This document shows positions 8,581-57,202 of a stretch of 64,000 nt of DNA, in pieces; position 1 is the stretch's first letter; each line of letters starts with the position of its first letter. A model generated the notes under the pieces. That model made no database searches, was not told the origin of the DNA, and worked only from the letters and a program-made list of their open reading frames with translations. Source of the stretch: Fibrobacterota bacterium (GTDB lineage: Bacteria; Fibrobacterota; Fibrobacteria; UBA11236); contig CANKII010000006.1 of NCBI GenBank assembly GCA_947482115.1, positions 1 through 64,000 of the forward strand, given 5' to 3'. The translations under genes and the position numbers were made by a program.

Positions 8581-10401
8581 TTAAGGAGTGAAAAACGCGC
8601 GAACGGCCGTTCCCTGTTCGGTCTTAACCTGCAGGAAATACAAGGTGGTACCGAAGAGATTGGAAGGCATGTCATAATCCTTCCAGCCGTTACCCTTCAA
8701 GGAAGTGATTGTCTGTCCCTGTGCATTCAGGATTTGAACTTCGTGCGGACCTGTTGAAAGCACGGAGAACGATTTGCTTCCCACTCTCAGCCAGTTCACG
8801 TCTCCACGCTCCAACGCCTTGGAGATGCCCACCACTGCGCCTCCAGGATGCAAAGCGGTATCCTGACAGGTTCCAGTATAGGTGACGCGAACGATACCGC
8901 CACTTGCAGCCGTGGGGCTGCCGCTGCAACATCCTCCTCCCCAGTCCGTTACGTAAAGGGCGCCATCCGGGCCCTGTTGCATGTCAACAGGGTTAGTGAG
9001 GGTGGGGCGACCGGTTTTAGTCATTGTAAACACATTCACCTGTGAGCCAACTGCGAGTGCCGTCGCGGAGTCGAACTTTACTGCGGTAAAGTTATTGTTG
9101 GTAAAATTCCCGTAAATGACGGTATTATCCAAATGGGGCGGCATCTTGCCAGCATTATTGATTCTGCCATCGTAACGGATAATGGCCCCACCCGCCGCGC
9201 AACCGCCCTGTTCCTGGTAAACGGGCAAGTGCATAGGCGGCAAGGAATCGACTCCCAACGCGGGCGCCCAGTTATTTGCGATAGCCGTTGCAAGATTTGT
9301 GGTGGGATTGAAAGCGGCCCAACCTGCTGTGGTGACGTCATTCGCTTCATCATAGCTGCCGTGTTTTGCGGTCTGACGCGTTGCGGTCCCGGAAAAGAAC
9401 GGCCAGCCGCCCCACGCAGGGTGATTGGCAATATTGCCCTCCTCCTGGCGTTGTGCATCCGGTCCACATTCAGACCATGCAATCCACCCAAGACGGTTTT
9501 TATCAAGGCTCATGCCATAAGGGTTTCTGGACCCTTTCACGTAAATTTCTGGCTTAACTTGAGCAGTGTCACGATAAGCCGCAGCAAGTGCGGTCCGGCC
9601 CTGTTTTGTGAATTCTGCAGCCCAATATTCCCCAAAATTTCCAGCGGGAATGGTATAACCTTTGGTGACGGTGGAATCGGGATGGATACGCATGGTTCCT
9701 CCCCGCAAATCGGCCGTATTGCCGGGACCCATTGCTTCAGCTTCGTTATCGGCAGCTGTTACATACAGATTTCCGAAATTGTCAAATTGCATTGCGCCTC
9801 CCGTGTGCCAACGTGCCGAGGTGCCAGCCGGAATGAAAACCAAAACCTTTTCGGAAGCGAGGTCGATCATCTTGGTCGTCGCATTCAGCTTGAACCGGGA
9901 AGTACGCCATCCGACGGTGGCAGAGCCTTGCGCTTGAACAGCTCCGGTGGAGTACTGGATGTAGATGAAATTATCCGCTGCGAAAGTGTTGGGATTCAAA
10001 GCGATGCCCCACACACCCTGCTCATCCACGCCTCCGCCGCCGTAATTCACATTCGGAATGGTTCCGATAGCGGTGAGAGTGTTGGCAGTGGCGTTATAAT
10101 AAAGCACTCGTGCCTGCGAGGTAGAGCTACCGCCCTTCTCGGTCATGTATATATCCACTTTCCCACCGTTCATGAAGAACGCCATTTTGTTAACACGGTA
10201 GGGCGCGGCGCTTGAAAATAGGGCTTGGCTGATAATGGGTGTGATGGTAAACCCTGTATTCAATGCGGCGGGAAGACCCGCGCAACTGCCAGTTGCAGTG
10301 CCGGATGTATAAGCCGATGTCCACGCTTGTGCATGCGTTTGCTGGACGGTGAGCGTTGCAACAGCAACAGCGATAAGCGAAAATGTTTTCACAAAATTCA
10401 T
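8581..10401 (-). CDS. secreted PQQ-type sugar/sorbosone dehydrogenase-like beta-propeller protein
   Basis: A 606-residue exported protein. The signal peptide ends near QQTHAQA. The body is a six-bladed soluble glucose/sorbosone dehydrogenase-like propeller: GVWGIALNPNTFAADNFIYI, GGAMQFDNFGNLYVTAADNE, GSRNPYGMSLD and QGPDGALYVTDWGGG. The last ~75 residues (QILNAQGQTITSLKG to the end) look like a C-terminal sorting domain of the type IX kind, ending ...VKTEQGTAVRAFFTP. The likely role is oxidation of an extracellular sugar; PQQ binding is not proven here. GAGGGG precedes the start. It is a single gene with its own terminator. Confidence 0.8.
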   Translation of the reverse strand: MNFVKTFSLIAVAVATLTVQQTHAQAWTSAYTSGTATGSCAGLPAALNTGFTITPIISQALFSSAAPYRVNKMAFFMNGGKVDIYMTEKGGSSTSQARVLYYNATANTLTAIGTIPNVNYGGGGVDEQGVWGIALNPNTFAADNFIYIQYSTGAVQAQGSATVGWRTSRFKLNATTKMIDLASEKVLVFIPAGTSARWHTGGAMQFDNFGNLYVTAADNEAEAMGPGNTADLRGGTMRIHPDSTVTKGYTIPAGNFGEYWAAEFTKQGRTALAAAYRDTAQVKPEIYVKGSRNPYGMSLDKNRLGWIAWSECGPDAQRQEEGNIANHPAWGGWPFFSGTATRQTAKHGSYDEANDVTTAGWAAFNPTTNLATAIANNWAPALGVDSLPPMHLPVYQEQGGCAAGGAIIRYDGRINNAGKMPPHLDNTVIYGNFTNNNFTAVKFDSATALAVGSQVNVFTMTKTGRPTLTNPVDMQQGPDGALYVTDWGGGCCSGSPTAASGGIVRVTYTGTCQDTALHPGGAVVGISKALERGDVNWLRVGSKSFSVLSTGPHEVQILNAQGQTITSLKGNGWKDYDMPSNLFGTTLYFLQVKTEQGTAVRAFFTP

Positions 10402-10529
10402 GTACTACCCCTCTGGTTTTGGCCTTACCACATTATGCGGAACTTTTAATATAAGGGTCAAATGAGACTTGAGGTGGCTATTTATGGGAATTTTTTAGGA
10501 TAAAATGCCTATTCGGGTTAAAAATGACA

Positions 10530-11003
10530 CTATTCGCGAGAAAATGCCCCCCTAAACTCCAGAACAGCCTGAATTAGATAACGATCGGCTTGTTTTCCTC
10601 TCGCCAGCTTGCAAAGCGCATACCGGTGTATGGGTTTTAAACGGCTCCACTCCTTAAAGTCCATCTCAGCAGAACATTCCATCCATTTCACTTTAACGTC
10701 ATCGGGAATTGTTCCCGGATCCACCCAACGTTCCAAATCCACAGGTTCGCCAAGACCACAAACTGCCATTGCGCTTTTTAATCGGGCGGCCCAAATAACC
10801 TGTTCATTTTCATTCCCGAAAGACAAACCCAACAACGAGATGCGTTCAGAAAATGGAAGGCTTAGCCAGGAGGCCAGGCCCATCTTAAGTCCACATACAT
10901 CCAACCGATAGCGAAAAGCCAGCGGCATCCAGTTCAAATCCGAAAATTCATCGCGTTCAAATGCAAAGAGGTTCGGGGGAACTGGAGAAGGAATGGGATT
11001 CAA
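10530..11003 (-). CDS. nitrate-reductase-associated protein family (TIGR02664-like)
   Basis: The core FAFERDEFSDLNWMPLAFRY then RLDVCGLKMGLASWLSLPF matches the cyanobacterial family known near nitrate reductase and molybdopterin genes (FEADF...IPMQVRYKLDTCGIKL in that family). Its function is unknown; a chaperone or maturation role is assumed. The open frame runs to a TTG at 11078, but TTG 11003 has CGGAG nine bases upstream and gives 157 residues, close to the family's ~145. It lies 2.0 kb from moaA and is divergent from the cytochrome c gene. No nitrate reductase is in the window. Confidence 0.7.
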   Translation of the reverse strand: MNPIPSPVPPNLFAFERDEFSDLNWMPLAFRYRLDVCGLKMGLASWLSLPFSERISLLGLSFGNENEQVIWAARLKSAMAVCGLGEPVDLERWVDPGTIPDDVKVKWMECSAEMDFKEWSRLKPIHRYALCKLARGKQADRYLIQAVLEFRGAFSRE

Positions 11004-46480: not shown

Positions 46481-48430
46481 ATGTGCGGCATAGCGGGCAT
46501 CCATAATCGGAGCGGCAGACCGGTGGATTCCACCGTGCTTCGGAACATGGCCCGTATCCAACGCCATCGCGGCCCCGACGAAGACGGATTTTATCGTAAT
46601 GAAAATCAAGGCGGAAACGTAGGCTTGGGCCAGATGCGGCTTAGCATCATCGATCTTTCCGGCGGCAAACAGCCGATTCATAACGAAGAGAAAAACATCT
46701 GGGTGGTGTTCAACGGGGAGATTTTCAATTACCCGGAATTGCGCGAGGCTTTGGAAAAAAAGGGCCATCGCTTTTACACCCACACCGACACAGAAACCAT
46801 AGTCCACGCCTACGAAGAATATGGCCTTGATTTTGTCGATCATCTCAACGGACAGTTTGCCATTGCGCTTTGGGATGAAAAACGAAATCGATTGATCCTG
46901 GCCCGTGATCGCGTTGGCATCTGTCCGCTGTTTTATGCGCGGTTGCCGGGAGAAGACTTGATCTTCTCTTCGGAGATGAAAGGTTTGTTCCAACATCCCG
47001 GAATCAAACCGGAAATGGATCCCAAAGGCATCGGACAGATCTTTACCTTCTGGGCCAATGTTCCCCCGCGCACGGTATTCAAGGATGTGTTGGAACTTCC
47101 GGCGGGACACATTCTGGTTTCCACGCCGGATCGGATGGATGTTCGCCGCTATTGGGAAATGGAATTTCCGGATGCGGGGGATTACGAAGATCGTCCGTTG
47201 GAATATTATGCGTCGGGAGTTCGGGAGTTATTGCACGACGCGACCACATTGCGGTTGCGCGCCGATGTGCCAGTGGCAACTTATCTCAGCGGTGGAATCG
47301 ATTCGAGCATCATTTCCGCTTTAGTCAAGAAGTATCATAATCCGGGTCTCATCACTTTTTCCGTGGCTTTCGCCGATGCGGCGTATGATGAGAAATCCTA
47401 TCAAATGGAAATGGTTCGGCATTTGGGAACCGATCATCGCAGCATTGAAGCAAACTATGCAGACATCGGAAAATGTTTCCCCGAAGTCGTGTGGCATGCC
47501 GAAAAACCGATGACGCGCACCGCACCCGCACCTCTGTATTTATTGGCTGGATTGGTACGGCAGAACGGCATCAAGGTGGTGCTGACCGGCGAAGGGTCAG
47601 ATGAAATTTTCGGCGGGTACAATATTTTTCTGGAAGACAAGATTCGCCGGTTCTGGGCCAAGCAACCGGATTCCAAGATACGTCCCGGATTGCTATCGCG
47701 ACTTTATCCTGAGTTCAACAAGAACGCCGCGTCGCAAAGTTTCTGGCGGCAATTCTTCCGTAAGGGCCTGACAGAAACAAGCGATCCGTATTATTCGCAT
47801 CGCATTCGCTGGCAGAACACGGCGCAAATCCAGAATCTTTTTGATTCAAATTTCCGAAAAGAAATGGGCGACGAAGCAGAGCGCTATGCGGAACTGGAAG
47901 CGTACGTCAGTCCGGATTTGATGCGGTGGGACCCACTTTGCCGTTCGCAATATCTGGAAACCACTTTGTTCATGTCCGGATGTTTGCTGTCCTCGCAAGG
48001 CGATCGCATGTTGTTGGGACAATCAGTGGAAGGCCGTTTCCCTTTTCTGGATCATCGTCTCATCGAATTCGCCGCGAAGATTCCACCGAAGTACAAGATT
48101 CATCAATTGCGCGAAAAGCATATACTCAAAGAGGCCTTTCGCGATTTGGTTCCTGCGAATATTGTGCAACGCGCCAAGCAGCCGTATCGTGCGCCTATCA
48201 GCCCGTGTTTTCTGGATGCGAATGTGGGACAGGCGCATGCGATGTTGAGCGCGGATGCGGCGAAGAGCTGCGGTTATTTTGATCCAGTGGGAGTGGAACA
48301 GTTGGTTGCCAAGTTGAAGAAAAGCGAAGGCATGGCGGCTAGCGCACGAGAAGATATGGCTGCAGTGGGCATTGTTTCTTTGCATTTGCTCCACAATCAA
48401 TTCATCAATCAATTTCCCGTCGCATGCTGA
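46481..48430 (+). CDS. asnB: asparagine synthase-type glutamine amidotransferase
   Basis: A 649-residue AsnB-type enzyme: an N-terminal class II glutaminase (catalytic Cys2 in MCGIAGIHNR, RGPDEDGFY, LGQMRLSIIDLSGGKQPI) and an ATP-pyrophosphatase synthase domain (PVATYLSGGIDSSIISALV). It may make asparagine, but it is the first gene of the polysaccharide locus and overlaps the acyl-AMP ligase gene by seven bases. Such enzymes in sugar clusters (for example exosortase-A-associated amidotransferases) modify a carboxylate or aminosugar precursor. The C-terminal region (PFLDHRLIEFAAKIPPKYKI) is standard. Confidence 0.9.
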   Translation: MCGIAGIHNRSGRPVDSTVLRNMARIQRHRGPDEDGFYRNENQGGNVGLGQMRLSIIDLSGGKQPIHNEEKNIWVVFNGEIFNYPELREALEKKGHRFYTHTDTETIVHAYEEYGLDFVDHLNGQFAIALWDEKRNRLILARDRVGICPLFYARLPGEDLIFSSEMKGLFQHPGIKPEMDPKGIGQIFTFWANVPPRTVFKDVLELPAGHILVSTPDRMDVRRYWEMEFPDAGDYEDRPLEYYASGVRELLHDATTLRLRADVPVATYLSGGIDSSIISALVKKYHNPGLITFSVAFADAAYDEKSYQMEMVRHLGTDHRSIEANYADIGKCFPEVVWHAEKPMTRTAPAPLYLLAGLVRQNGIKVVLTGEGSDEIFGGYNIFLEDKIRRFWAKQPDSKIRPGLLSRLYPEFNKNAASQSFWRQFFRKGLTETSDPYYSHRIRWQNTAQIQNLFDSNFRKEMGDEAERYAELEAYVSPDLMRWDPLCRSQYLETTLFMSGCLLSSQGDRMLLGQSVEGRFPFLDHRLIEFAAKIPPKYKIHQLREKHILKEAFRDLVPANIVQRAKQPYRAPISPCFLDANVGQAHAMLSADAAKSCGYFDPVGVEQLVAKLKKSEGMAASAREDMAAVGIVSLHLLHNQFINQFPVAC

Positions 48431-49926
48431 TTCAGAACTTTTTGGAATCCGCCGCTGCCCGCTTTCCCGACAAAGATGCGGTATGGCATAAAAAAGAATG
48501 GATGACCTATGCGCAACTGGAGGCGCAGGCCAATCGCTTTGCCCACGGTCTTCAAAAGCTGGGGATTCAACGCGGCGATCGCGTGGCCTTGTTGTATGAA
48601 AACTCGTTTCATTATGTGATTTCCCATTTCGCGATTTTAAAATCCGGCGCGGTAAATGTTTCCCTAAACACCGAAACTTCGGCGCAACCGCTGGAATATT
48701 TGCTTCGGGATTGCGAAGTCAAAGCCATTATTGCGGCCGGAAAGTATTTGCCGATGTTATTGCAAATGGAATCTGCGCTGCCGGATTTGAAAGCGGTCAT
48801 TGCCGAACGCGAAATTCTGGCATCTTCTCCGGCATTCTCCCACGTTCGTACGGTTGCTTTGGAAGATTTGTATTCCCAGGGTTCGGAGCATCCGCCTGTT
48901 TGCGAAACACAAGAAACGGATTTGGCATCCCTAGTCTATACTTCGGGTAGCACGGCCAAACCCAAAGGGGTGATGCTGTCGCATCGCAATCTCGTCAGCA
49001 ATGCGCTGGCCGTTGTACAATACATGACCTTGACGCCGGACGATCGTATTCTCTGCGTATTGCCTTTTCATTATATCTACGGAACGTCTTTGCTGTACAC
49101 GCACATTGCCGCCGGTGGTTCGGTGGTCATTGAAAACCGTTTCGCCTATCCCAATGTGGCGTTGGACACTTTGCAGGAAACCGAAGCCACGGGTTTTGCA
49201 GGCGTTCCTTCCACTTTCGCCATTCTGTTGGCCAAATCCACGGTGAGGAAAAGAGTGTTTCCCCATCTCCGTTATGTGGCCCAAGCGGGCGGAGCCATGG
49301 TTCCGTCATTGCAAAAAGAAGTGGCCGAGGCGTTTCATCCCGTGAAACTTTTCATCATGTACGGTTGCACCGAAGCTGCGCCTCGTCTGACGTATTTGGA
49401 CCCTGATGCGTTGCCAAGCAAATGGGGCTCCATCGGCAAGCCGATTCCGGGCGTTGAGATTATGCTTGCCGGAGAAACAGGTGAGATTATGGCACGTGGT
49501 CCGAACATTATGATGGGTTATTGGAAGGATCCACAAGGCACGGCCGAGGCGATACGGGATGGCTGGTATTTTACGGGAGACTTGGGTCGCATGGACGAGG
49601 AGGGTTTTCTCTTCGTGGTCGGTCGCAGCAAAGACATCATCAAAGCGGGCGGAAACCGCGTCAGCGCGCAGGAAATTGAAGAAGCATTGATGGAATTCGA
49701 AAACGTATCCGAGGCTGCAGTGATAGGTGTTCCGGATGACATTTTGGGTGAGGCCATCAAGGCTTTCGTTGTTATCAAGCCGGGTCAATCGTTGAATTTG
49801 GAAGCGATGAAAACCCGGTTGAAATTGCGATTGTCGGTGTTCAAACAACCGAAGTGGATTGAGATTCGGGACAACCTTCCCAAGAGCGCGGCGGGGAAGA
49901 TTTTGAAAAATGAATTGAAGGCTTAG
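48424..49926 (+). CDS. acyl-AMP ligase (acyl-CoA synthetase-like)
   Basis: A 500-residue ANL-superfamily adenylating enzyme. The P-loop-like motif is LVYTSGSTAKPKGVMLSHRN near residue 165. Others are MYGCTEAAPRLTYLDP, GWYFTGDLGRMDEEGF with the hinge Asp, and the catalytic Lys in NLPKSAAGKILKN at the end. It activates a carboxylic acid as AMP ester, probably for transfer to the acyl carrier protein encoded 135 bases downstream. The substrate is unknown. It starts ATG 48424 inside the asnB end. Two REP-like palindromes separate it from the carrier gene. Confidence 0.9.
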   Translation: MLIQNFLESAAARFPDKDAVWHKKEWMTYAQLEAQANRFAHGLQKLGIQRGDRVALLYENSFHYVISHFAILKSGAVNVSLNTETSAQPLEYLLRDCEVKAIIAAGKYLPMLLQMESALPDLKAVIAEREILASSPAFSHVRTVALEDLYSQGSEHPPVCETQETDLASLVYTSGSTAKPKGVMLSHRNLVSNALAVVQYMTLTPDDRILCVLPFHYIYGTSLLYTHIAAGGSVVIENRFAYPNVALDTLQETEATGFAGVPSTFAILLAKSTVRKRVFPHLRYVAQAGGAMVPSLQKEVAEAFHPVKLFIMYGCTEAAPRLTYLDPDALPSKWGSIGKPIPGVEIMLAGETGEIMARGPNIMMGYWKDPQGTAEAIRDGWYFTGDLGRMDEEGFLFVVGRSKDIIKAGGNRVSAQEIEEALMEFENVSEAAVIGVPDDILGEAIKAFVVIKPGQSLNLEAMKTRLKLRLSVFKQPKWIEIRDNLPKSAAGKILKNELKA

Positions 49927-49929
49927 GGA

Positions 49930-49957
49930 CGTACCCTTCGACTCCGCTCAGGGTACG
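49930..49957. repeat. REP-like palindrome between ligase and carrier genes
   Basis: CGTACCCT (49930-49937) and AGGGTACG (49950-49957) form an eight-pair stem around the loop tcgactccgctc. The loop is the exact reverse complement of the one at 1336-1347, while the stem differs, as expected for a family with compensating stem changes. Confidence 0.65.
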
Positions 49958-49997
49958 AAACACAGTTTAATATTCAGAGATGGCCAACAAATGACCG

Positions 49998-50020
49998 GTG
50001 GCTGAGCCTGTCGAAGCCAC
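49998..50020. repeat. second REP-like palindrome upstream of the acyl carrier gene
   Basis: GTGGCT (49998-50003) and AGCCAC (50015-50020) enclose gagcctgtcga. The sequence belongs to a very widespread dispersed element whose translation reads AEPVEATG; the same peptide appears as a false N-terminus of the carrier-protein frame starting at 49998. Confidence 0.6.
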
Positions 50021-50060
50021 AGGAATTACTTTTCCTTTATTCACATCACCGGAATCCCAC

Positions 50061-50321
50061 ATGACCCTTATTGAATCCGAAGTCAAGGCCAAACTCAAGA
50101 CGTTCATTGCCAAAAATTTCCTGCTCGGAAAAGATCCCGGCAGTTTGAAAGATGGTGATTCCTTTTTGGACACCGGCATTGTGGACTCGACCGGCGTGTT
50201 GGAGTTCGTTGCCTTTCTTCAGGAAACTTGGTCCGTTGAAACGGCCGATGACGAATTGACCATGGAGAATTTCGATTCCATCAACAATCTCGCCGGATTT
50301 GTTTTGAAAAAGGCGGCCTGA
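50061..50321 (+). CDS. acyl carrier protein
   Basis: An 86-residue phosphopantetheine carrier. The attachment site is Ser43 in GIVDSTGVLEF (usual form DSL, here DST). The four-helix ACP pattern is kept: EVKAKLKTFIAKNFL, then ELTMENFDSINNLAGFVLK. It probably carries the acid activated by the ligase at 48424. ATG 50061 is preferred over 49998, which would add 21 residues of repeat translation. Its stop abuts the start of the NAD-synthase-like gene. Confidence 0.9.
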   Translation: MTLIESEVKAKLKTFIAKNFLLGKDPGSLKDGDSFLDTGIVDSTGVLEFVAFLQETWSVETADDELTMENFDSINNLAGFVLKKAA

Positions 50322-51314
50322 ATGGCGTCAGCGGTTTTTTCCAAAGACGTGTTGAAGCTGGATTGTGCCGCCGAAGTGGCGAAGATCTCCGGCATCATGC
50401 AGGAGTACGCACAGAAATGCCGCAAGCGCGGTGTCGTGGTGGCCCTGTCCGGCGGCATCGATAGCTCAGTCACTGCGGCGTTGAGTGTCGTCGCTTTGGG
50501 ATCGGAACGGGTATTCGGCCTGCACATGCCGGAGCGGGATTCTTCCGGTGAAACTTTGGGGTTGAGTCAATCCATTTCCACGCATTTCGGATTTGCATCC
50601 ATCGTCGAGGAATTGACCCCGATTCTGGAATCCGTGGGATGTTATGCGCGCCGGGACGAGGCCATTCGTTCCGCCATTCCGGAGTACGGACCCGGATGGA
50701 AAAGCAAAATCGTGCTGCCCAATGTCATCGAGCATGTGGGTTTCAATTTTTACTCGGTCGTGGCGCAATCTCCAAATGGTGAACAGATCAAAAAACGGTT
50801 GCCATTGGAAGCCTATCTCCAAATCGTGGCCGCCACCAATTTCAAACAGCGCGTCCGCAAAATGCTGGAATATTATCACGCCGACCGGTTGAATCATCTG
50901 ACCACCGGAACGCCCAACCGTCTCGAATACGATCAGGGGTTCTTCGTCAAACTCGGAGATGGCGCGGCGGACATCAAGCCCATCGCCCATCTTTACAAGT
51001 CGCAGGTCTATCAACTTGCCGAACATCTGGGAGTGCCGGTGGAAGTTCGAAAGCGTCCTCCAACAACGGACACCTATTCGTTATCCCAAGGTCAGGACGA
51101 GTTTTATTTCTCCCTGCCTTACGATCAAATGGACCTGTGCCTGTATGGCAAAAACCATGGAGTTGCAACGGGTGTGGTGGCCGAAGCCATCGGTCTGACG
51201 GCGGAACAGGTGGGGCGGGTATACAAGGACATCGACGTCAAACGGCGGTCCACCCAGTATTTGCATTTGAAGCCCAAGCTCATGGAAGACGTGAGCGAGC
51301 TTACGGGTGTATAA
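50322..51314 (+). CDS. NAD-synthase-like ATP-dependent amidotransferase
   Basis: A 330-residue member of the NadE family of N-type ATP pyrophosphatases. The P-loop is VVALSGGIDSSVTAALS near residue 40, and GTPNRLEYDQGFFVKLGDG with AADIKPIAHLYKSQVYQLAE are the family core. NadE normally amidates nicotinic acid adenine dinucleotide. The usual GTxNxxE motif is altered (GTPNRLEYDQ) and the gene sits in the ligase-carrier module of a polysaccharide locus. It may therefore be a specialised paralogue that amidates or ligates another carboxylate. A true NadE cannot be excluded. It has no glutaminase domain, so it would use free ammonia. Confidence 0.75.
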   Translation: MASAVFSKDVLKLDCAAEVAKISGIMQEYAQKCRKRGVVVALSGGIDSSVTAALSVVALGSERVFGLHMPERDSSGETLGLSQSISTHFGFASIVEELTPILESVGCYARRDEAIRSAIPEYGPGWKSKIVLPNVIEHVGFNFYSVVAQSPNGEQIKKRLPLEAYLQIVAATNFKQRVRKMLEYYHADRLNHLTTGTPNRLEYDQGFFVKLGDGAADIKPIAHLYKSQVYQLAEHLGVPVEVRKRPPTTDTYSLSQGQDEFYFSLPYDQMDLCLYGKNHGVATGVVAEAIGLTAEQVGRVYKDIDVKRRSTQYLHLKPKLMEDVSELTGV

Positions 51315-51342: not shown

Positions 51343-52170
51343 ATGAAAGCCCTGTCAATCCGATGGTTGTGCCTTCCGAGTCTCCTGACTTTTTGGGCCT
51401 GCCATGAACCGGTTGACGTGAAAAAAACCATGCCGGATAATGCCGCGTTTCAGGAACAAATTTCCGAAGTTGGAAAAGCCCGGATTTTTTTCGGCCACCA
51501 GTCCGTGGGCGGGAATGTGCTCGATGGCTTGAATAGCCTAATGGATTCTTCGCAGCCGCAGGTAAATGTCGTCAAGGCCGGTAAAGATGCGGCACTTCCT
51601 CCGGGTCCCTGTTTTGTTCACTCCTATCTCGGGGAGAACGCCAATCCCGCCGCCAAGATCCGGGATTTCGCTGAATTTGTGAATCAGCCCCAATCACAGG
51701 ATTGGAATGCGGTGTTGTTGAAGTTCTGCTTTTTGGACATTACCCGCAACACCGATGTGCCGTCTCTTTTCAAGCTTTATCAGGACACAGTGGCGTCCCT
51801 CAAGCAGCAGCATCCTGGCGTGATTTTCATTCACGCCACCGCACCATTGACCCGGGCTGACGGACTCAAGGCTTTTGTGAAAAAGCTTCTCGGCAAACGC
51901 ACCGCTGAGGAGGACAATATCCGACGTCTGGAATACAACAGCCTGCTGATGTCGGCCTTCGGCAATGAACCCGTTTTCGACATCAGTCGCATTGAGTCCA
52001 CGCGTCCGGACGGAAGCCGTGAAAGCTTCGCCCGTTCTGGAAAGAAGTATTATCAACTGGCCCCGGAATACACGACCGATGGCGGACATTTGAACGCCGA
52101 GGGGAGCCGCGTACTGGCCGTGGATTTGATACATGTGATTGCGGAAGCGTTGAAGCGGAGGCCGTCCTGA
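51343..52170 (+). CDS. SGNH-hydrolase-like lipoprotein
   Basis: A 275-residue lipoprotein (LPSLLTFWAC lipobox). The mature protein shows an SGNH/GDSL-like layout: block I is altered to IFFGHQSVGGNVLDGL with the Ser after HQ, then VLLKFCFLDITRN (block III-like region), IFIHATAPLTRADGL and the C-terminal block V TTDGGHLNAEGSRVLA with Asp and His. It may deacylate or acylate surface polysaccharide. Similar GHQSVG proteins occur in polysaccharide clusters (recollection, not checked). It precedes three acyltransferase genes. Confidence 0.7.
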   Translation: MKALSIRWLCLPSLLTFWACHEPVDVKKTMPDNAAFQEQISEVGKARIFFGHQSVGGNVLDGLNSLMDSSQPQVNVVKAGKDAALPPGPCFVHSYLGENANPAAKIRDFAEFVNQPQSQDWNAVLLKFCFLDITRNTDVPSLFKLYQDTVASLKQQHPGVIFIHATAPLTRADGLKAFVKKLLGKRTAEEDNIRRLEYNSLLMSAFGNEPVFDISRIESTRPDGSRESFARSGKKYYQLAPEYTTDGGHLNAEGSRVLAVDLIHVIAEALKRRPS

Positions 52171-52217: not shown

Positions 52218-52778
52218 TTGCGCGTATCCCTCGCGGTGGGGCGGGGTTTTCTGTTTCGTTTGAAATTGATCCTGTGGGATCCGGGGAACGTTTCCATTGG
52301 GAAAGGTCTTCGCATTTACAGCAGCTTGTACATACGGGGTCCGGGCAAAGTGATCATTGGGAATAATTTCAGCACCAACCGCAACATTTTCAAGGAAACC
52401 ACCATCCTGACTCATCATCCGGATGCGGTGGTTCGCATCGGTGATGGAAATTATTTCGGCGGTGTTCACATCAGCTGCGTCCGGAAGATCGAGATAGGGG
52501 ACAACAACCTGCTTGGCAACACCGTGATTCTGGACAGCGACATCATTCCGCATCCCAATATGAAAGTGGATCGGGACTGGATGGAAAAATGGTCCCGCGC
52601 GGTCGTCATCGGAAACAACACCTGGCTGGCCGTCAATACCGTGGTCTTGAAGGGCGTGACCTTGGGCGATGAATGCGTCCTGAGTGCGGGTTCTGTTGCG
52701 GCAGCGGATGCCGAACCGCGTTCCCTGTTGTTGGGTGTTCCTGCGCGCAAGATCAAATCGACGCGGGAGGACGCGTGA
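52218..52778 (+). CDS. left-handed beta-helix acyltransferase, first of three
   Basis: About 186 residues of hexapeptide-repeat (LbH) acetyltransferase fold: VSIGKGLRIYSSLYIRGPGK, IGDGNYFGGVHISC, EIGDNNLLGNTVILDSDI and a C-terminal VVIGNNTWLAVNTVVLKGV and GVPARKIKS. Such enzymes O- or N-acetylate sugars. Start TTG 52218 is the conventional choice. However, CTG 52167 is preceded by GGAGG at 52157-52161 and overlaps the upstream stop exactly like the following genes, so the protein may be 17 residues longer. It is followed with a four-base overlap by a second LbH gene. Confidence 0.8.
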   Translation: MRVSLAVGRGFLFRLKLILWDPGNVSIGKGLRIYSSLYIRGPGKVIIGNNFSTNRNIFKETTILTHHPDAVVRIGDGNYFGGVHISCVRKIEIGDNNLLGNTVILDSDIIPHPNMKVDRDWMEKWSRAVVIGNNTWLAVNTVVLKGVTLGDECVLSAGSVAAADAEPRSLLLGVPARKIKSTREDA

Positions 52779-53320
52779 AGGGGGATTTCTTCGCGCGCTG
52801 TCGCGGCCTTTGGTACACGTTCAAATACCAATACATTTTCGGCAATGCTGTTGTGGAAGGCCCCTTGTACGCCTACGCCAGATTGGAAATCAAGGGGCCG
52901 GGCAAAGTCGTTTTTGGATCCAATGTGCGAATCCTGCCCACAGCTTTTGGCGGGGATTATGTCTCTTTGTATTTGAATCATCGCGAATCCATCATTCGAA
53001 TCGGAAACAACGCGGTTCTCAGGGGCACGCGTGTGGGCTGTGAATCCAGCATTGAAATCGGGGACGGCGCCGTGGTGGAATCCGCTTCGCTGTTCGACAC
53101 CGATTTTCATCACATAGACGCTTCGCGACGCGATGAAGTGGATGAGAAGGCCGTCAAGCCGCTGGTCATCGGCGCGGGAGCCTACGTGGGTTGGGAATGT
53201 TGCGTGGGCAAGGGAGCCCATCTCGGTGCGGACTCGGTGATGCTGCCCAATACTTTGCTCACATGGAAAACCACCGGGCCGGATGCGGTTCTGATCGGGG
53301 TTCCGGGAAGGGTGTTATGA
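52775..53320 (+). CDS. left-handed beta-helix acyltransferase, second of three
   Basis: A 181-residue hexapeptide-repeat protein: RLEIKGPGKVVFGSNVRILP, IIRIGNNAVLRGTRVGC, SSIEIGDGAVVESASLFDTD and LVIGAGAYVGWECCVGKGAH, ending IGVPGRVL. It starts at GTG 52775 in the stop of the previous gene, with GGGAGG four bases upstream. The next start overlaps its stop by four bases. Its repeat pattern differs from both neighbours, so it is not a recent duplicate. The acceptor sugar is unknown. Confidence 0.85.
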   Translation: MKGDFFARCRGLWYTFKYQYIFGNAVVEGPLYAYARLEIKGPGKVVFGSNVRILPTAFGGDYVSLYLNHRESIIRIGNNAVLRGTRVGCESSIEIGDGAVVESASLFDTDFHHIDASRRDEVDEKAVKPLVIGAGAYVGWECCVGKGAHLGADSVMLPNTLLTWKTTGPDAVLIGVPGRVL

Positions 53321-53916
53321 GTATTGCCGGCATGATTCGTGAAAAACTCGATGTCTGGCGTTTGCGGCGCAGGTGGGAAAATCTCCGCGCTCTTGGAATG
53401 CACATCGGGAAAGAGGTCAATCTTCCCTTGTCCACTTGGATCGACACGGCGCATTGTCATTTGATTTCCATCGGCGATCGCTGCGGCTTCGGCAGCTCGT
53501 GCGCCATTCTCACCCATGACGCCATGCCGAATGAATATCTCGACGCCACTCGTGTGGGCAAAGTGACCATTCATGAATCCTGTCATTTCGGAATGAACAC
53601 TGTGATTCTTCCTGGCGTCACCATCGGGCCGCGCGTTGTGGTGGGCGCGGGATCGGTGGTGCACAAGGACATTCCCGCCGATTCCGTGGCTGCGGGAAAT
53701 CCCGCCAAGGTGATTTGCACCTTGCAGGAGTATTTGGACAGGCACAAAGAGGCGATGAAAACCGCGCCGCTTTTTCCCTTCTACGAATATTCCCAGGAAT
53801 ATCTCACGCCGGAAAAAATCCGATTCATGCAGGACGAACTGGCAAAAAGTTCGGGTTACATCACGGGTGGATACACGGCGATGCAACAAGGCAAAAGTCT
53901 GGTGCGCACAAAATGA
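53317..53916 (+). CDS. serine/maltose O-acetyltransferase-like LbH protein, third of three
   Basis: A 199-residue acetyltransferase of the NodL/LacA/WbbJ type: LISIGDRCGFGSSCAILTHD, VTIHESCHFGMNTVILPGVT and IGPRVVVGAGSVVHKDIPAD, VAAGNPAKVICT. The His in ILTHD is the usual catalytic position. ATG 53317 overlaps the previous stop (ATGA). It has a C-terminal extension of about 50 residues (FYEYSQEYLTPEKIRFMQDE) beyond the beta-helix. Confidence 0.88.
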   Translation: MSIAGMIREKLDVWRLRRRWENLRALGMHIGKEVNLPLSTWIDTAHCHLISIGDRCGFGSSCAILTHDAMPNEYLDATRVGKVTIHESCHFGMNTVILPGVTIGPRVVVGAGSVVHKDIPADSVAAGNPAKVICTLQEYLDRHKEAMKTAPLFPFYEYSQEYLTPEKIRFMQDELAKSSGYITGGYTAMQQGKSLVRTK

Positions 53917-54911
53917 AAAGGACCCTTCTCAAAACGCTCGACGCTTTGGGAGGATTTTCCATGTTCAACCCGTTTACGAAAAATTCGGCCACGATTTTCA
54001 TGTTGCATTCCGTTGCCGCCGTGAACGATGGTCGCGATGTCACTTCTCCGGCGCTTTTGGAGGAATGCTTCTCCTACTTGAAGCGGAATGGCTACAGGGT
54101 GTTGTCGTTGAGGAATTATGTGCAGGCGCTTGAGAATCGCGAGAGCACTTATAAATCCGTGGTGTTCACCGTGGACGATGGCTACCGTGATTTTTACGAG
54201 CACGCGTATGCCGTATTCAAAAAATACGGATACTCCGCCACGATTTTTCTGACGAGTGATTTTATCAACAGGCGGATTTTCCTGTGGTGGGACCAAATCG
54301 AATTCTCCATTCAGAACACATTGAAAACGGAAGTGGATGTGGATGGGTTGGGGAAGGTTGCCATCGGAACTGCTTCGGAAAAATCGGAAGCCATTTTCAG
54401 AATCATCCACCGCTTCAAAAAAATTCCCAATGCGCAAATGCGGCGGAACGTGTCCCAATTGGTGGAACAATTGGGCGTGGATGTTTCCGGTCAACCTTCC
54501 GGAAAATATTCCCCGTTGAGTTGGGCCGAAATTCTGGAAATGCAGGCGAACGGGATCGAGTTTCATCCGCACACACAAAACCATCCCATTCTGACCCGGC
54601 TGAATGCGGAAGATTATGACGCTGAATTAAGGGAGAGCAAGGATCAAATTGAAAGTCATTTGGGAATTTCAGCCGACATTTTGTGCTATCCCAACGGCGG
54701 CCCGGAGGATTTCAGCGACGGCGTGATTGAAGAGGCGAAGAAAGCGGGATACCGTGCTGCGGTGACGGGAATACCGGGCTTCAACAATACACAGGCAAAT
54801 ACCGACATGTACCGTTTGGGCCGGTTCGGACTTCCCACCGATTCCCTGCTTTTCAAGGAGTACGTTTGCGGCATGGAGGCGCTCAAGTTCCGGTTGCGAC
54901 CGGTCGCTTGA
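53913..54911 (+). CDS. NodB-type polysaccharide deacetylase, first of two
   Basis: A 332-residue CE4-family protein. The metal/catalytic motif is VVFTVDDGYRDFYEHAYAVF (Asp-Asp), and the zinc motif is HPHTQNHPIL (H-x3-H). C-terminal landmarks are ILCYPNGGPEDFSDGVI and AVTGIPGFNN. It has an ~70-residue insert (EIQFSIQNTL-like region after the DD motif) as in glycan-modifying members. It probably removes N- or O-acetyl groups from a sugar intermediate. ATG 53913 overlaps the upstream stop by four bases; longer frames upstream lie inside the LbH gene. Confidence 0.88.
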   Translation: MKRTLLKTLDALGGFSMFNPFTKNSATIFMLHSVAAVNDGRDVTSPALLEECFSYLKRNGYRVLSLRNYVQALENRESTYKSVVFTVDDGYRDFYEHAYAVFKKYGYSATIFLTSDFINRRIFLWWDQIEFSIQNTLKTEVDVDGLGKVAIGTASEKSEAIFRIIHRFKKIPNAQMRRNVSQLVEQLGVDVSGQPSGKYSPLSWAEILEMQANGIEFHPHTQNHPILTRLNAEDYDAELRESKDQIESHLGISADILCYPNGGPEDFSDGVIEEAKKAGYRAAVTGIPGFNNTQANTDMYRLGRFGLPTDSLLFKEYVCGMEALKFRLRPVA

Positions 54912-55910
54912 ATGTTTGTCCGGAGGATGAAGAGGGTGTGGATCGCATGGGAAACCCAGAGACGGACGTTGAATCTCTCCGTGAAGGTGAATGCGAGGCT
55001 CGCCATTTTTGACGATGAAGACAAGGGCCTCATTCGTTATCCGTTGTCCGCCGCGAAAACTTTTTTTGTGTTGTGGAAGCACCGCGGCGATTTGGTGTTT
55101 GTCCAGTTTCCCTCGTTGTTGCTCACGGCAATGGCCTGCTTTCTGAAGCCTTTGTTGCGCTATACTTTGGTGGTGGACCGGCACACCGATTTTTCACTGG
55201 AGCTCAAGCCGCCGTATTCGTGGAAGGAGCGGATCATTCTGTCCCTTGCGGCTTATACCGTTCGCAAGGCGGATTTGACGATTGTGACCAATGCGGAGAT
55301 GGCCGCAGGCATTGATGCAATCGGCGGCAGAAGTTTCGTGCTTCCCGATCCGTATCTCGATCTTGCCGTCGCGCCTCTGATTCCGCATGAAGGGCCTGTG
55401 GAAATTCTGTTTGTTTCCACCTGGGCTGAGGACGAACCCATTTTGGAAACCCTCGAAGCCTGTCGCGCCCTCGAAGGTCGTGCAAAGGTTTATATCTCGG
55501 GAAGGATGAAAAAGTCTTTTGAAAAGGCGGTGGCATCCGCCCCTTCCAATTTCATTCCCACGGGTTTTCTCAGCGACGAAAAATATTTTGAATTGATGGC
55601 CCGTGTGGATTGCGTCATGGCGGTGACCACGCGGCCTTCGACTTTGGTTTGCGGAGGCTATGAAGCGGTGAGCATGGGCAAGCCGATGATACTGGGGAAC
55701 TCGAAAGTTTTGCGCGAATATTTCCATCAGGGCGCTTTGTATACCAATGGGTCGGCAACGGACTTGATCCGTGTATTTCAGGAGTTACGGGTCAGGCTTC
55801 CCAGCCTTCGCGAAGAGATACTGCAATTTCATGAACAGAGCAGTGCGGATTGGGAGCGGCGTCTTGCCACCTTGAACACCGTTCTCGAAAAAGAAAGCGC
55901 TCCTCGATGA
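54912..55910 (+). CDS. glycosyltransferase (GT-B, GT4-like)
   Basis: A 332-residue protein with a Rossmann-like layout. The N-terminal domain has GDLVFVQFPSLLLTAMACFL and TLVVDRHTDF. The C-terminal nucleotide-sugar domain is marked by PVEILFVSTWAEDEPI, NFIPTGFLSDEKYFELMA and RPSTLVCGGYEAVSMGKPMI. The E-x7-E signature is not clear. It starts directly after the preceding stop. It is probably one of the sugar-adding enzymes of the repeat-unit assembly. Confidence 0.8.
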   Translation: MFVRRMKRVWIAWETQRRTLNLSVKVNARLAIFDDEDKGLIRYPLSAAKTFFVLWKHRGDLVFVQFPSLLLTAMACFLKPLLRYTLVVDRHTDFSLELKPPYSWKERIILSLAAYTVRKADLTIVTNAEMAAGIDAIGGRSFVLPDPYLDLAVAPLIPHEGPVEILFVSTWAEDEPILETLEACRALEGRAKVYISGRMKKSFEKAVASAPSNFIPTGFLSDEKYFELMARVDCVMAVTTRPSTLVCGGYEAVSMGKPMILGNSKVLREYFHQGALYTNGSATDLIRVFQELRVRLPSLREEILQFHEQSSADWERRLATLNTVLEKESAPR

Positions 55911-57202
55911 GTCCCCGCAGAATCGGTTTTTGGGCCGCGCTGATTTTCATGCTGGTCAGCGTGGGGCAGATTCATGAAATGATCCCCGGCCTGAGATATT
56001 TCAAATTGGGCAGCATCACCACCATTCTCCTGTATGTACTGGTGATTATGGAACTCCGCACTTTGAAGTGGAGCCCCATGGTGATTTGGCGGCTGGTGTT
56101 TTTTACCGCCATGCTACCGGGTTTGATGTTCGGATTCAACCGGGGCATGATTTTTGTCACCGTGAAGAACGAATTCGCGCTGGTGTTCGCCTTTTTTCTG
56201 GGCGCCATTCTTTTTTTCCGAACCATGGATGATTTGCGCAAGGTGCAGTCGGCCCTGATCGCATTAGCCGGGGCACTCTCCTTGTGGGCCATCACGCATT
56301 CCGGACGTGGTCCGGGCTTGCTCGGGGATGAGAATGACGTTGCCATATTCATGGTGATGCTGCTGCCGTTTCCCTTTTTCAAGTTGCTGGAGAAATTGAG
56401 TCCGAGAAGTTTCATCATGTACCTGATGATCTTTTTTTCCACCTTGGCCGGCATTGCCTCCACCATTTCCCGGGGTGGTATGGTGGGAACCGTGGTGGTT
56501 CTGTCGGCATGCTGGCTTAAAACGCGATACAAGATTTCCACCATTGTGGTGGTGATACTCATGTTGGCCGCAGTGTTGGCCATCGGTCCGCCCAAATTAA
56601 TGTCAGAATTTGAATCCATCTCCGATACGCATGAAACCACGGCAGACGAAAGAATTTTCTACTGGGGTTTGTCGTGGAAAATGTTTCTGGCACGGCCGAT
56701 TTTCGGAGTGGGTGCGCGCGCTTGGGGCGACGCGGTGTGGTCTGGCATCGTGAGTACCGGAGGACGCCATTTCGGAAATATGACCCCGCATTCCGTTTAC
56801 TTTCAGTTGATTTCCGAGTTGGGGATCGCCGGGGTGATTCCGTGGGTCGCGCTGGTCATCAGTTGCTTTTTCTGTTTTAAATACCTGCTGCCCTCCAATC
56901 TTAAAAGGCAGATGGGTGCGGAAATACGAAGCAATGCGAACCCTCTGTTCGTCAAGGAGCTCGACGAAAGGCAAAAGTTTTTCTCCAACTTTGGCATGGC
57001 TGTGGGCATAGGCCTGCTGGGCTTCATGGCATCGGGGGCGTTTTTATCGGTTCTGTTCTATCCCATGTTCACAACGTTCGCCTGCATCATTCAGGCGACG
57101 CGGGATACGTGGGATCGGGATCTGCATATTTTGAAAATCGTCAAGCCGCAGAAAGATTCCGTACCAGTCCCAGTTCCCGTCACCGCAGATTTGCCTGGAT
57201 GA
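55907..57202 (+). CDS. O-antigen ligase/polymerase-type membrane protein
   Basis: A 431-residue polytopic inner-membrane protein with about ten hydrophobic segments and the Wzy/WaaL pattern. Landmarks are the short motif SGRGPGLLGDENDVAIFMV, STISRGGMVG, and the large periplasmic loop between hydrophobic segments with IFGVGARAWGD and GNMTPHSVYFQLISELGIAG. The NxHSxYFQLxxELGxxG motif is the signature of O-antigen ligases and polymerases. It either joins repeat units or transfers the chain to its acceptor. ATG 55907 overlaps the previous stop (ATGA). Confidence 0.88.
   Translation: MSPRRIGFWAALIFMLVSVGQIHEMIPGLRYFKLGSITTILLYVLVIMELRTLKWSPMVIWRLVFFTAMLPGLMFGFNRGMIFVTVKNEFALVFAFFLGAILFFRTMDDLRKVQSALIALAGALSLWAITHSGRGPGLLGDENDVAIFMVMLLPFPFFKLLEKLSPRSFIMYLMIFFSTLAGIASTISRGGMVGTVVVLSACWLKTRYKISTIVVVILMLAAVLAIGPPKLMSEFESISDTHETTADERIFYWGLSWKMFLARPIFGVGARAWGDAVWSGIVSTGGRHFGNMTPHSVYFQLISELGIAGVIPWVALVISCFFCFKYLLPSNLKRQMGAEIRSNANPLFVKELDERQKFFSNFGMAVGIGLLGFMASGAFLSVLFYPMFTTFACIIQATRDTWDRDLHILKIVKPQKDSVPVPVPVTADLPG

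Follow-up and report, generated by a model that had tools for sequence, protein, structure and literature searches.

The first 64,000 nucleotides of contig C6 (CANKII010000006.1; C6:1-64000) of a Fibrobacterota genome of 2.7 Mb and 99% completeness, referred to here as the window, carry a set of four genes on the forward strand, whose open reading frames (ORFs) occupy positions 46481-51314. They encode an AsnB-family glutamine amidotransferase, an acyl-AMP ligase, an acyl carrier protein and a protein resembling the NAD synthetase NadE, hereafter NadE-L. This set had been recognized by an initial annotation made from the sequence alone, and the ORFs were found in place and their families confirmed with Pfam and NCBIfam models. 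The AsnB protein (46481..48430; PF00733, 293 bits; TIGR01536, 519.6 bits) presents the Cys2 nucleophile in MCGI and the PP-loop SGGIDSS, catalytic motifs that were kept in 84 homologues. The ligase (48424..49926; PF00501, 292 bits; PF13193, 61 bits), which starts 7 bases inside the end of asnB, carries a YTSGST..PKG motif and matched NF004837 (431 bits) and TIGR03098 (396 bits), both below cut-off. The carrier (50061..50321; NF052616, 47 bits; PF00550, a weak 20.6 bits) has its phosphopantetheine serine in GIVDSTG (DST motif), and its likely start is the ATG at 50061, the longest ORF (49998-50321) opening at a GTG at 49998. NadE-L (50322..51314; PF02540, 156 bits) abuts the carrier stop codon.

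NadE-L is a full-length member of the NF002048 / PRK00876 family (500.5 bits against a cut-off of 313, residues 3-325 of 330), which owes the name 'NAD(+) synthase' to family resemblance, while the gene context of NadE-L suggests another substrate. It also scored above the cut-off of the canonical NadE model TIGR00552 (146 against 63.65 bits), and it resembles canonical NadE (TIGR00552, PRK13980) in the PP-loop, the Mg and ATP residues and, by sequence, the overall fold. However, in a maximum-likelihood tree all NadE-L proteins formed one clade outside canonical NadE (support 100/99), with a stem of 1.77 changes per site and short internal branches, and a median identity of 61% was kept across phyla. 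The initial annotation had expected a new function to show as a clade apart from true NadE and linked to ligase and carrier genes, and both aspects were observed. It had also named the lack of a second nadE, along with a position inside canonical NadE, as the result that would speak against it; a further, canonical NadE of the glutamine type is encoded in the source genome at C3:53757-54428 (673-aa frame), and a further NadE was among the matches listed in 45 of 46 NadE-L genomes from many phyla, the exception being G173.

The altered motif GTPNRLEYDQ, pointed out from the beginning, was nearly invariant in 104 NadE-L family ORFs (some being the same gene in overlapping loci), and thus marks the subfamily instead of a local oddity. 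The residues common to NadE-L and canonical NadE comprised the PP-loop SGGIDS (43-48), N173, R177, R179, N199, E202, G212-D213, K226, D271, K307 and R308. In contrast, substrate-side positions were switched (G198P, S201L, T209V, D223H, A249T and L251T), the canonical T of FTK, the D before L.K and the SA.L motif were not kept, and NadE-L carries an insert of ~45 residues (about 108-166) with invariant Y108, P120, K129, R159 and Y165. The preservation of the ATP and Mg residues together with the switched substrate side indicates that the ATP chemistry would be retained and the acid side altered. Judging from these sequence features and from its coexistence with canonical NadE, NadE-L is likely not the NAD synthetase of the cell and likely has a non-NAD function; its status as a paralogue is well supported, as is the module. 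Literature searches on NadE-like proteins with acyl carrier proteins, AsnB or exopolysaccharide clusters returned no paper describing the role of NadE-L; a paper on a Frankia NAD synthetase was rejected as precedent, as it concerned a glutamine-type enzyme unrelated to NadE-L.

The tree also resolved a second, divergent NadE-L lineage (L071 7391-8395, L228 10638-11648 and L233) as sister to the main clade. Locus L071 holds the divergent copy and a second NadE-L copy (10001-10990) in one cluster, and in the L228 protein the PP-loop is altered to GGGIDS, a gene for a WbuX-like enzyme (see below) being adjacent. Among the well-known control genomes, only that of the archaeon Methanosarcina acetivorans had a NadE-L above cut-off.

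The association of the four genes extends well beyond the window. The 80 loci gathered by similarity to NadE-L, a sample biased toward nearer relatives, belonged to Desulfobacterota, Actinomycetota, Planctomycetota, Verrucomicrobiota, Acidobacteriota, Myxococcota, Spirochaetota and others, and clustering of the four genes was seen in the first four of these phyla and on rhizobial megaplasmids. When the analysis was restricted to the 37 loci from several phyla with at least 9 kb on either side of NadE-L, the carrier was found in 34, the ligase in 33, AsnB in 32 and all three in 29, together with hexapeptide transferases (20 loci) and an SGNH protein (17 loci). Moreover, across 168 Fibrobacterota genomes NadE-L and the carrier were confined to the identical 22, AsnB occurring in 20 of these and one other genome, and the ligase in 20 of them and two others (Fisher tests from 5e-28 for NadE-L and carrier to 1e-21, uncorrected for relatedness). 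Such identical NadE-L and carrier profiles place the association far from chance. The co-distribution persisted even where the genes were scattered, as in the Fibrobacterota family f7, in which carrier and NadE-L are paired among unrelated genes, the ligase lies elsewhere and AsnB sits among genes that look, by sequence appearance, like those of polysaccharide export. Similarly, among 194 genomes of a desulfobacterial class, NadE-L occurred in 23, the carrier in 28 and both in 20. An AcpS gene was present in the cluster in 17 of 17 actinobacterial loci, which supports a working phosphopantetheine arm. Correlated partner distances singled out no partner of NadE-L (rho 0.42-0.58). The module of AsnB, ligase, carrier and NadE-L is real and old, and NadE-L belongs to this widespread set of four genes as a dedicated component. 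The module of the window looks like a mosaic, its NadE-L and ligase being closest to those of an acidobacterial metagenome-assembled genome (79% identity for NadE-L; L006 10001-10993) and its AsnB to a Fibrobacterota homologue.

A further indication came from eight desulfobacterial genomes with the carrier and without NadE-L, in six of which a WbuX/WbpG-like PP-loop ATPase directly adjoins the carrier. The order was AsnB, WbuX-like enzyme, carrier (and ligase) in four of them (L214, L216, L218 and L220), the other two (L215 and L217) being contig-end fragments, and in L216 homologues of two hexapeptide transferases of the window (Hex1 and Hex2) and of the SGNH protein surround the module. Five of the six WbuX-like proteins reached 141-157 bits against TIGR03573 (cut-off 203), and the sixth, a fragment, 46 bits. 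The WbuX/WbpG/PseA N-acetyl sugar amidotransferases described by this model are PP-loop ATPases like NadE-L, but NadE-L does not belong to them, as its likeness to the WbuX-like proteins was limited to the PP-loop in the alignment and TIGR03573 was not among the matches of NadE-L. The exchange between both enzymes is common, not exclusive; in genome G239, for example, they are encoded on separate contigs. The presence of a WbuX-like enzyme in this slot is the strongest hint that NadE-L would act as an ammonia-dependent ATP pyrophosphatase and that its substrate would be an intermediate of the carrier pathway.

Considering these data, the reading proposed here is that NadE-L is a neofunctionalised, ammonia-using former of an amide (or amidine) in an acyl-carrier pathway, and not an NAD synthetase, and that the four genes serve one pathway, a reading to which a probability of roughly one half is assigned. 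In such a pathway, the ligase would load the holo carrier with a carboxylic acid that it has first adenylated and that is probably not an amino acid. NadE-L, keeping the ATP/Mg pyrophosphatase site, would then adenylate a carbonyl of a pathway intermediate, and ammonia would displace AMP to give an amide or, less likely, an amidine. AsnB may form a second, glutamine-dependent amide or supply the ammonia, and the hexapeptide transferases and an extracytoplasmic SGNH lipoprotein would attach the acyl group to an exported polysaccharide or modify it there. Somewhat more tentatively, the module may represent a new role for the NAD-synthetase fold, namely the ammonia-dependent amidation or amidination of an acyl-carrier intermediate leading to an amide-bearing decoration of surface glycans, spread over many phyla and exchangeable with an unrelated PP-loop ATPase.

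Among the other explanations, NadE-L could be an additional NAD synthetase, dependent on ammonia, that accompanies the cluster with no other task than to supply NAD. The name given by NCBIfam, the score above the TIGR00552 cut-off, the retention of the ATP site and several core residues and the existence of stand-alone copies agree with this explanation, which is nevertheless improbable, given that another NadE was among the matches listed in nearly all genomes tested, that NadE-L forms a separate clade with a carrier profile identical in 168 genomes, and that a PP-loop ATPase other than NadE can fill its slot. Of similarly low probability is that NadE-L forms an amidine by activating the N-acyl amide of a sugar for the addition of ammonia, as WbpG and PseA do for acetamidino sugars. 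The WbuX/WbpG-like proteins that replace it in six genomes would fit this activity, and nearby hexapeptide transferases could form the N-acyl group; however, NadE chemistry converts a carboxylate to an amide, the substitutes themselves fall below the WbuX cut-off, and both enzymes occur together in one locus (L228).

The proposal of an acyl-carrier pathway that ends on a glycan draws on the genes that follow the module on the same strand. The first of them encodes p275 (51343..52170), which begins 28 bases past NadE-L and is, from its predicted structure and its GHQSVG and D246/H249 motifs, a likely lipoprotein with the SGNH-hydrolase/acyltransferase fold. It had no Pfam or NCBIfam match, and its AlphaFold2 (AF2) model (pLDDT 89) was closest in the PDB to the peptidoglycan O-acetyltransferase PatB (E 4e-7); F50, H52, S54, N99, D246 and H249 were invariant in 28 homologues. 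The p275 family (GHQSVG, 28 aligned), for which Pfam and NCBIfam have no model, seems to represent an SGNH lipoprotein that is widespread in polysaccharide clusters. Then come three hexapeptide transferase-like ORFs, Hex1 (acyl/acetyltransferase, 52218..52778; PF00132), Hex2 (transferase-like, 52673..53320; weak PF00132) and Hex3 (acetyltransferase, 53191..53916; PF00132), the true starts of the last two being probably later, and a polysaccharide deacetylase (53715..54911; PF01522, 84 bits) that opens the polysaccharide cluster 3′ of the module. This cluster includes an O-antigen ligase/polymerase-type membrane protein (Wzy_C, 55850..57202; PF04932, 61 bits; distantly TIGR03097, 94 bits, cut-off 188), as well as further polysaccharide deacetylases, glycosyltransferases and a pyruvyl transferase. 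Further along the contig, at C6 72101-78671 (L116 8101-14671), two Acyl_transf_3 genes lie amid those for three related proteins of 453-514 aa with a VDY..TVPHSSHI-like motif in common, the 514-aa member of which had no Pfam match when scanned.

Many module loci are exopolysaccharide clusters, and the SGNH fold of p275, the hexapeptide transferases and the polysaccharide genes together suggest that, in the window as in many other loci, an exported glycan receives an acyl decoration; in many hosts, a surface glycan would probably be the last acceptor. The usual substrate of NadE is a nucleotide pyrophosphate, and NadE-L retains several basic residues of the fold, which would also suit a pathway in which sugars are the only substrates of AsnB and NadE-L, nucleoside diphosphate (NDP)-uronates being converted for example to uronamides, and in which the ligase and carrier provide a separate acylation of the same polymer. 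The AsnB relatives WbpS and WbqG produce uronamides (PMC7468200), so that AsnB may act on a sugar instead. This division of labour is, even so, doubtful, as the carrier is the tightest partner of NadE-L and carrier and NadE-L pairs occur away from sugar genes.

Regarding the acid that would be loaded in the proposed amide-forming pathway, the window ligase and its homologues matched acyl-CoA ligase models best. Their fit to amino-acid adenylation was poor, this model being absent from the 25 best matches of the window ligase and staying far under its cut-off in the homologues. A Dlt-like aminoacyl group loaded by this ligase is consequently unlikely, and the aminoacyl option of the initial annotation was not supported. 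Its analogy with the Dlt system (DltA/DltC/DltD) stood in part: a carrier is loaded by a ligase and an SGNH-fold protein is encoded nearby, but the ligase is of the acyl and not the amino-acid type, and two amidating enzymes are added. A DltB-like (MBOAT) protein was absent from the annotated neighbours scanned, a genome-wide search not being made. Varying neighbours suggest that hosts may not all use the same acyl group: some module loci encode a short-chain reductase along with ketoacyl-synthase III, and some a B12 radical SAM enzyme. A methylmalonyl-CoA-epimerase-like VOC protein recurs within the module or close to it in Mycobacterium, Fibrobacterota and Desulfobacterota (L055 4402-4815, L206 11977-12453 and L229 4244-4660), and in family f7 a B12-binding radical SAM enzyme adjoins the carrier gene (L122 9528-12357, L205 8983-10685).

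The module also resembles the XrtA/PEP-CTERM set, in which an amidotransferase, a ligase and a carrier lie near exopolysaccharide genes, and some module loci are located in exosortase clusters. Unlike that set, NadE-L is present, and the scores of the window ligase (395.7 against a TIGR03098 cut-off of 592.35) and AsnB (431.7 against a TIGR03108 cut-off of 816.9) are much lower. The decarboxylase usual in such loci is absent from the source genome, as had been anticipated, the best TIGR03099 score there being 127 bits, under cut-off, and none of 26 module genomes exceeded this cut-off. The idea of a strict replacement of the XrtA decarboxylase was dropped, because decarboxylase-like genes just below the TIGR03099 cut-off are found close to the module in three genomes.

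NadE-L was found on 117 plasmid records, mostly Sinorhizobium pSymB-type megaplasmids. On pSymB of S. meliloti 1021, the same four-gene module as in the window is arranged as asnB, carrier (9.4 kDa), ligase and NadE-L, the last at NC_003078.1:1450588-1451556 with the other three upstream; unlike the window module, it lies near minCDE and not in a polysaccharide cluster. Its carrier is the only such carrier found on pSymB, and the module pair (L238) was identified as SMb20650 and SMb20651. According to PMC7232532, the ligase SMb20650 is cotranscribed with the carrier SMb20651, acylates holo-SMb20651 in E. coli and does not replace FadD; PMC5686131 lists the function of SMb20651 as unknown. The acylation of SMb20651 by SMb20650 gives experimental support to the loading step in a homologous pair. 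It also makes it very unlikely that NadE-L is itself a PP-loop acyl-carrier ligase joining the acid to the carrier thiol, with the AMP ligase acting elsewhere: the carrier and NadE-L pair of one Fibrobacterota family, with neither ligase nor AsnB nearby, would fit, but the ligase is still encoded in those genomes, and in E. coli the S. meliloti ligase suffices for acylation of the carrier (PMC7232532).

Several observations weigh against the amide-forming carrier pathway. The match of the SMb tags to L238 was drawn from the order of the genes, their numbering and their uniqueness, not from an annotated record. A number of module loci are not polysaccharide clusters (S. meliloti near minCDE, Mesorhizobium ciceri and one Fibrobacterota family), so that the glycan destination named in the initial annotation agrees with the many exopolysaccharide loci and not with these. 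Locus L228 holds a divergent NadE-L and a WbuX-like enzyme together, and a strict alternation between the two was dropped for this reason. Three of the 23 desulfobacterial NadE-L genomes lack such a carrier, and a structure model of a fused carrier and NadE-L (read through stops in L121) showed no confident contact (pTM 0.65, a value that fits contact as well as its absence). Finally, some NadE-L genes stand alone, for example beside an srkA-type kinase gene, and these copies fall inside the main NadE-L clade. The kinase gene (NF008738) adjoins a carrier-less NadE-L in two desulfobacterial genomes (L230 9028-10008 and 10029-11024, reverse strand; L232 7171-9230), where NadE-L may be a relic or have another role.

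If the proposed reading is true, the database name 'NAD synthase' misleads metabolic models in hundreds of genomes, and a new tailoring step would be added to carrier-based glycan decoration. For the S. meliloti carrier SMb20651, a concrete hypothesis follows from the module, namely a part in a conserved pathway whose partners are defined, and in this laboratory model strain, which has the module on its symbiosis plasmid, its role is testable.

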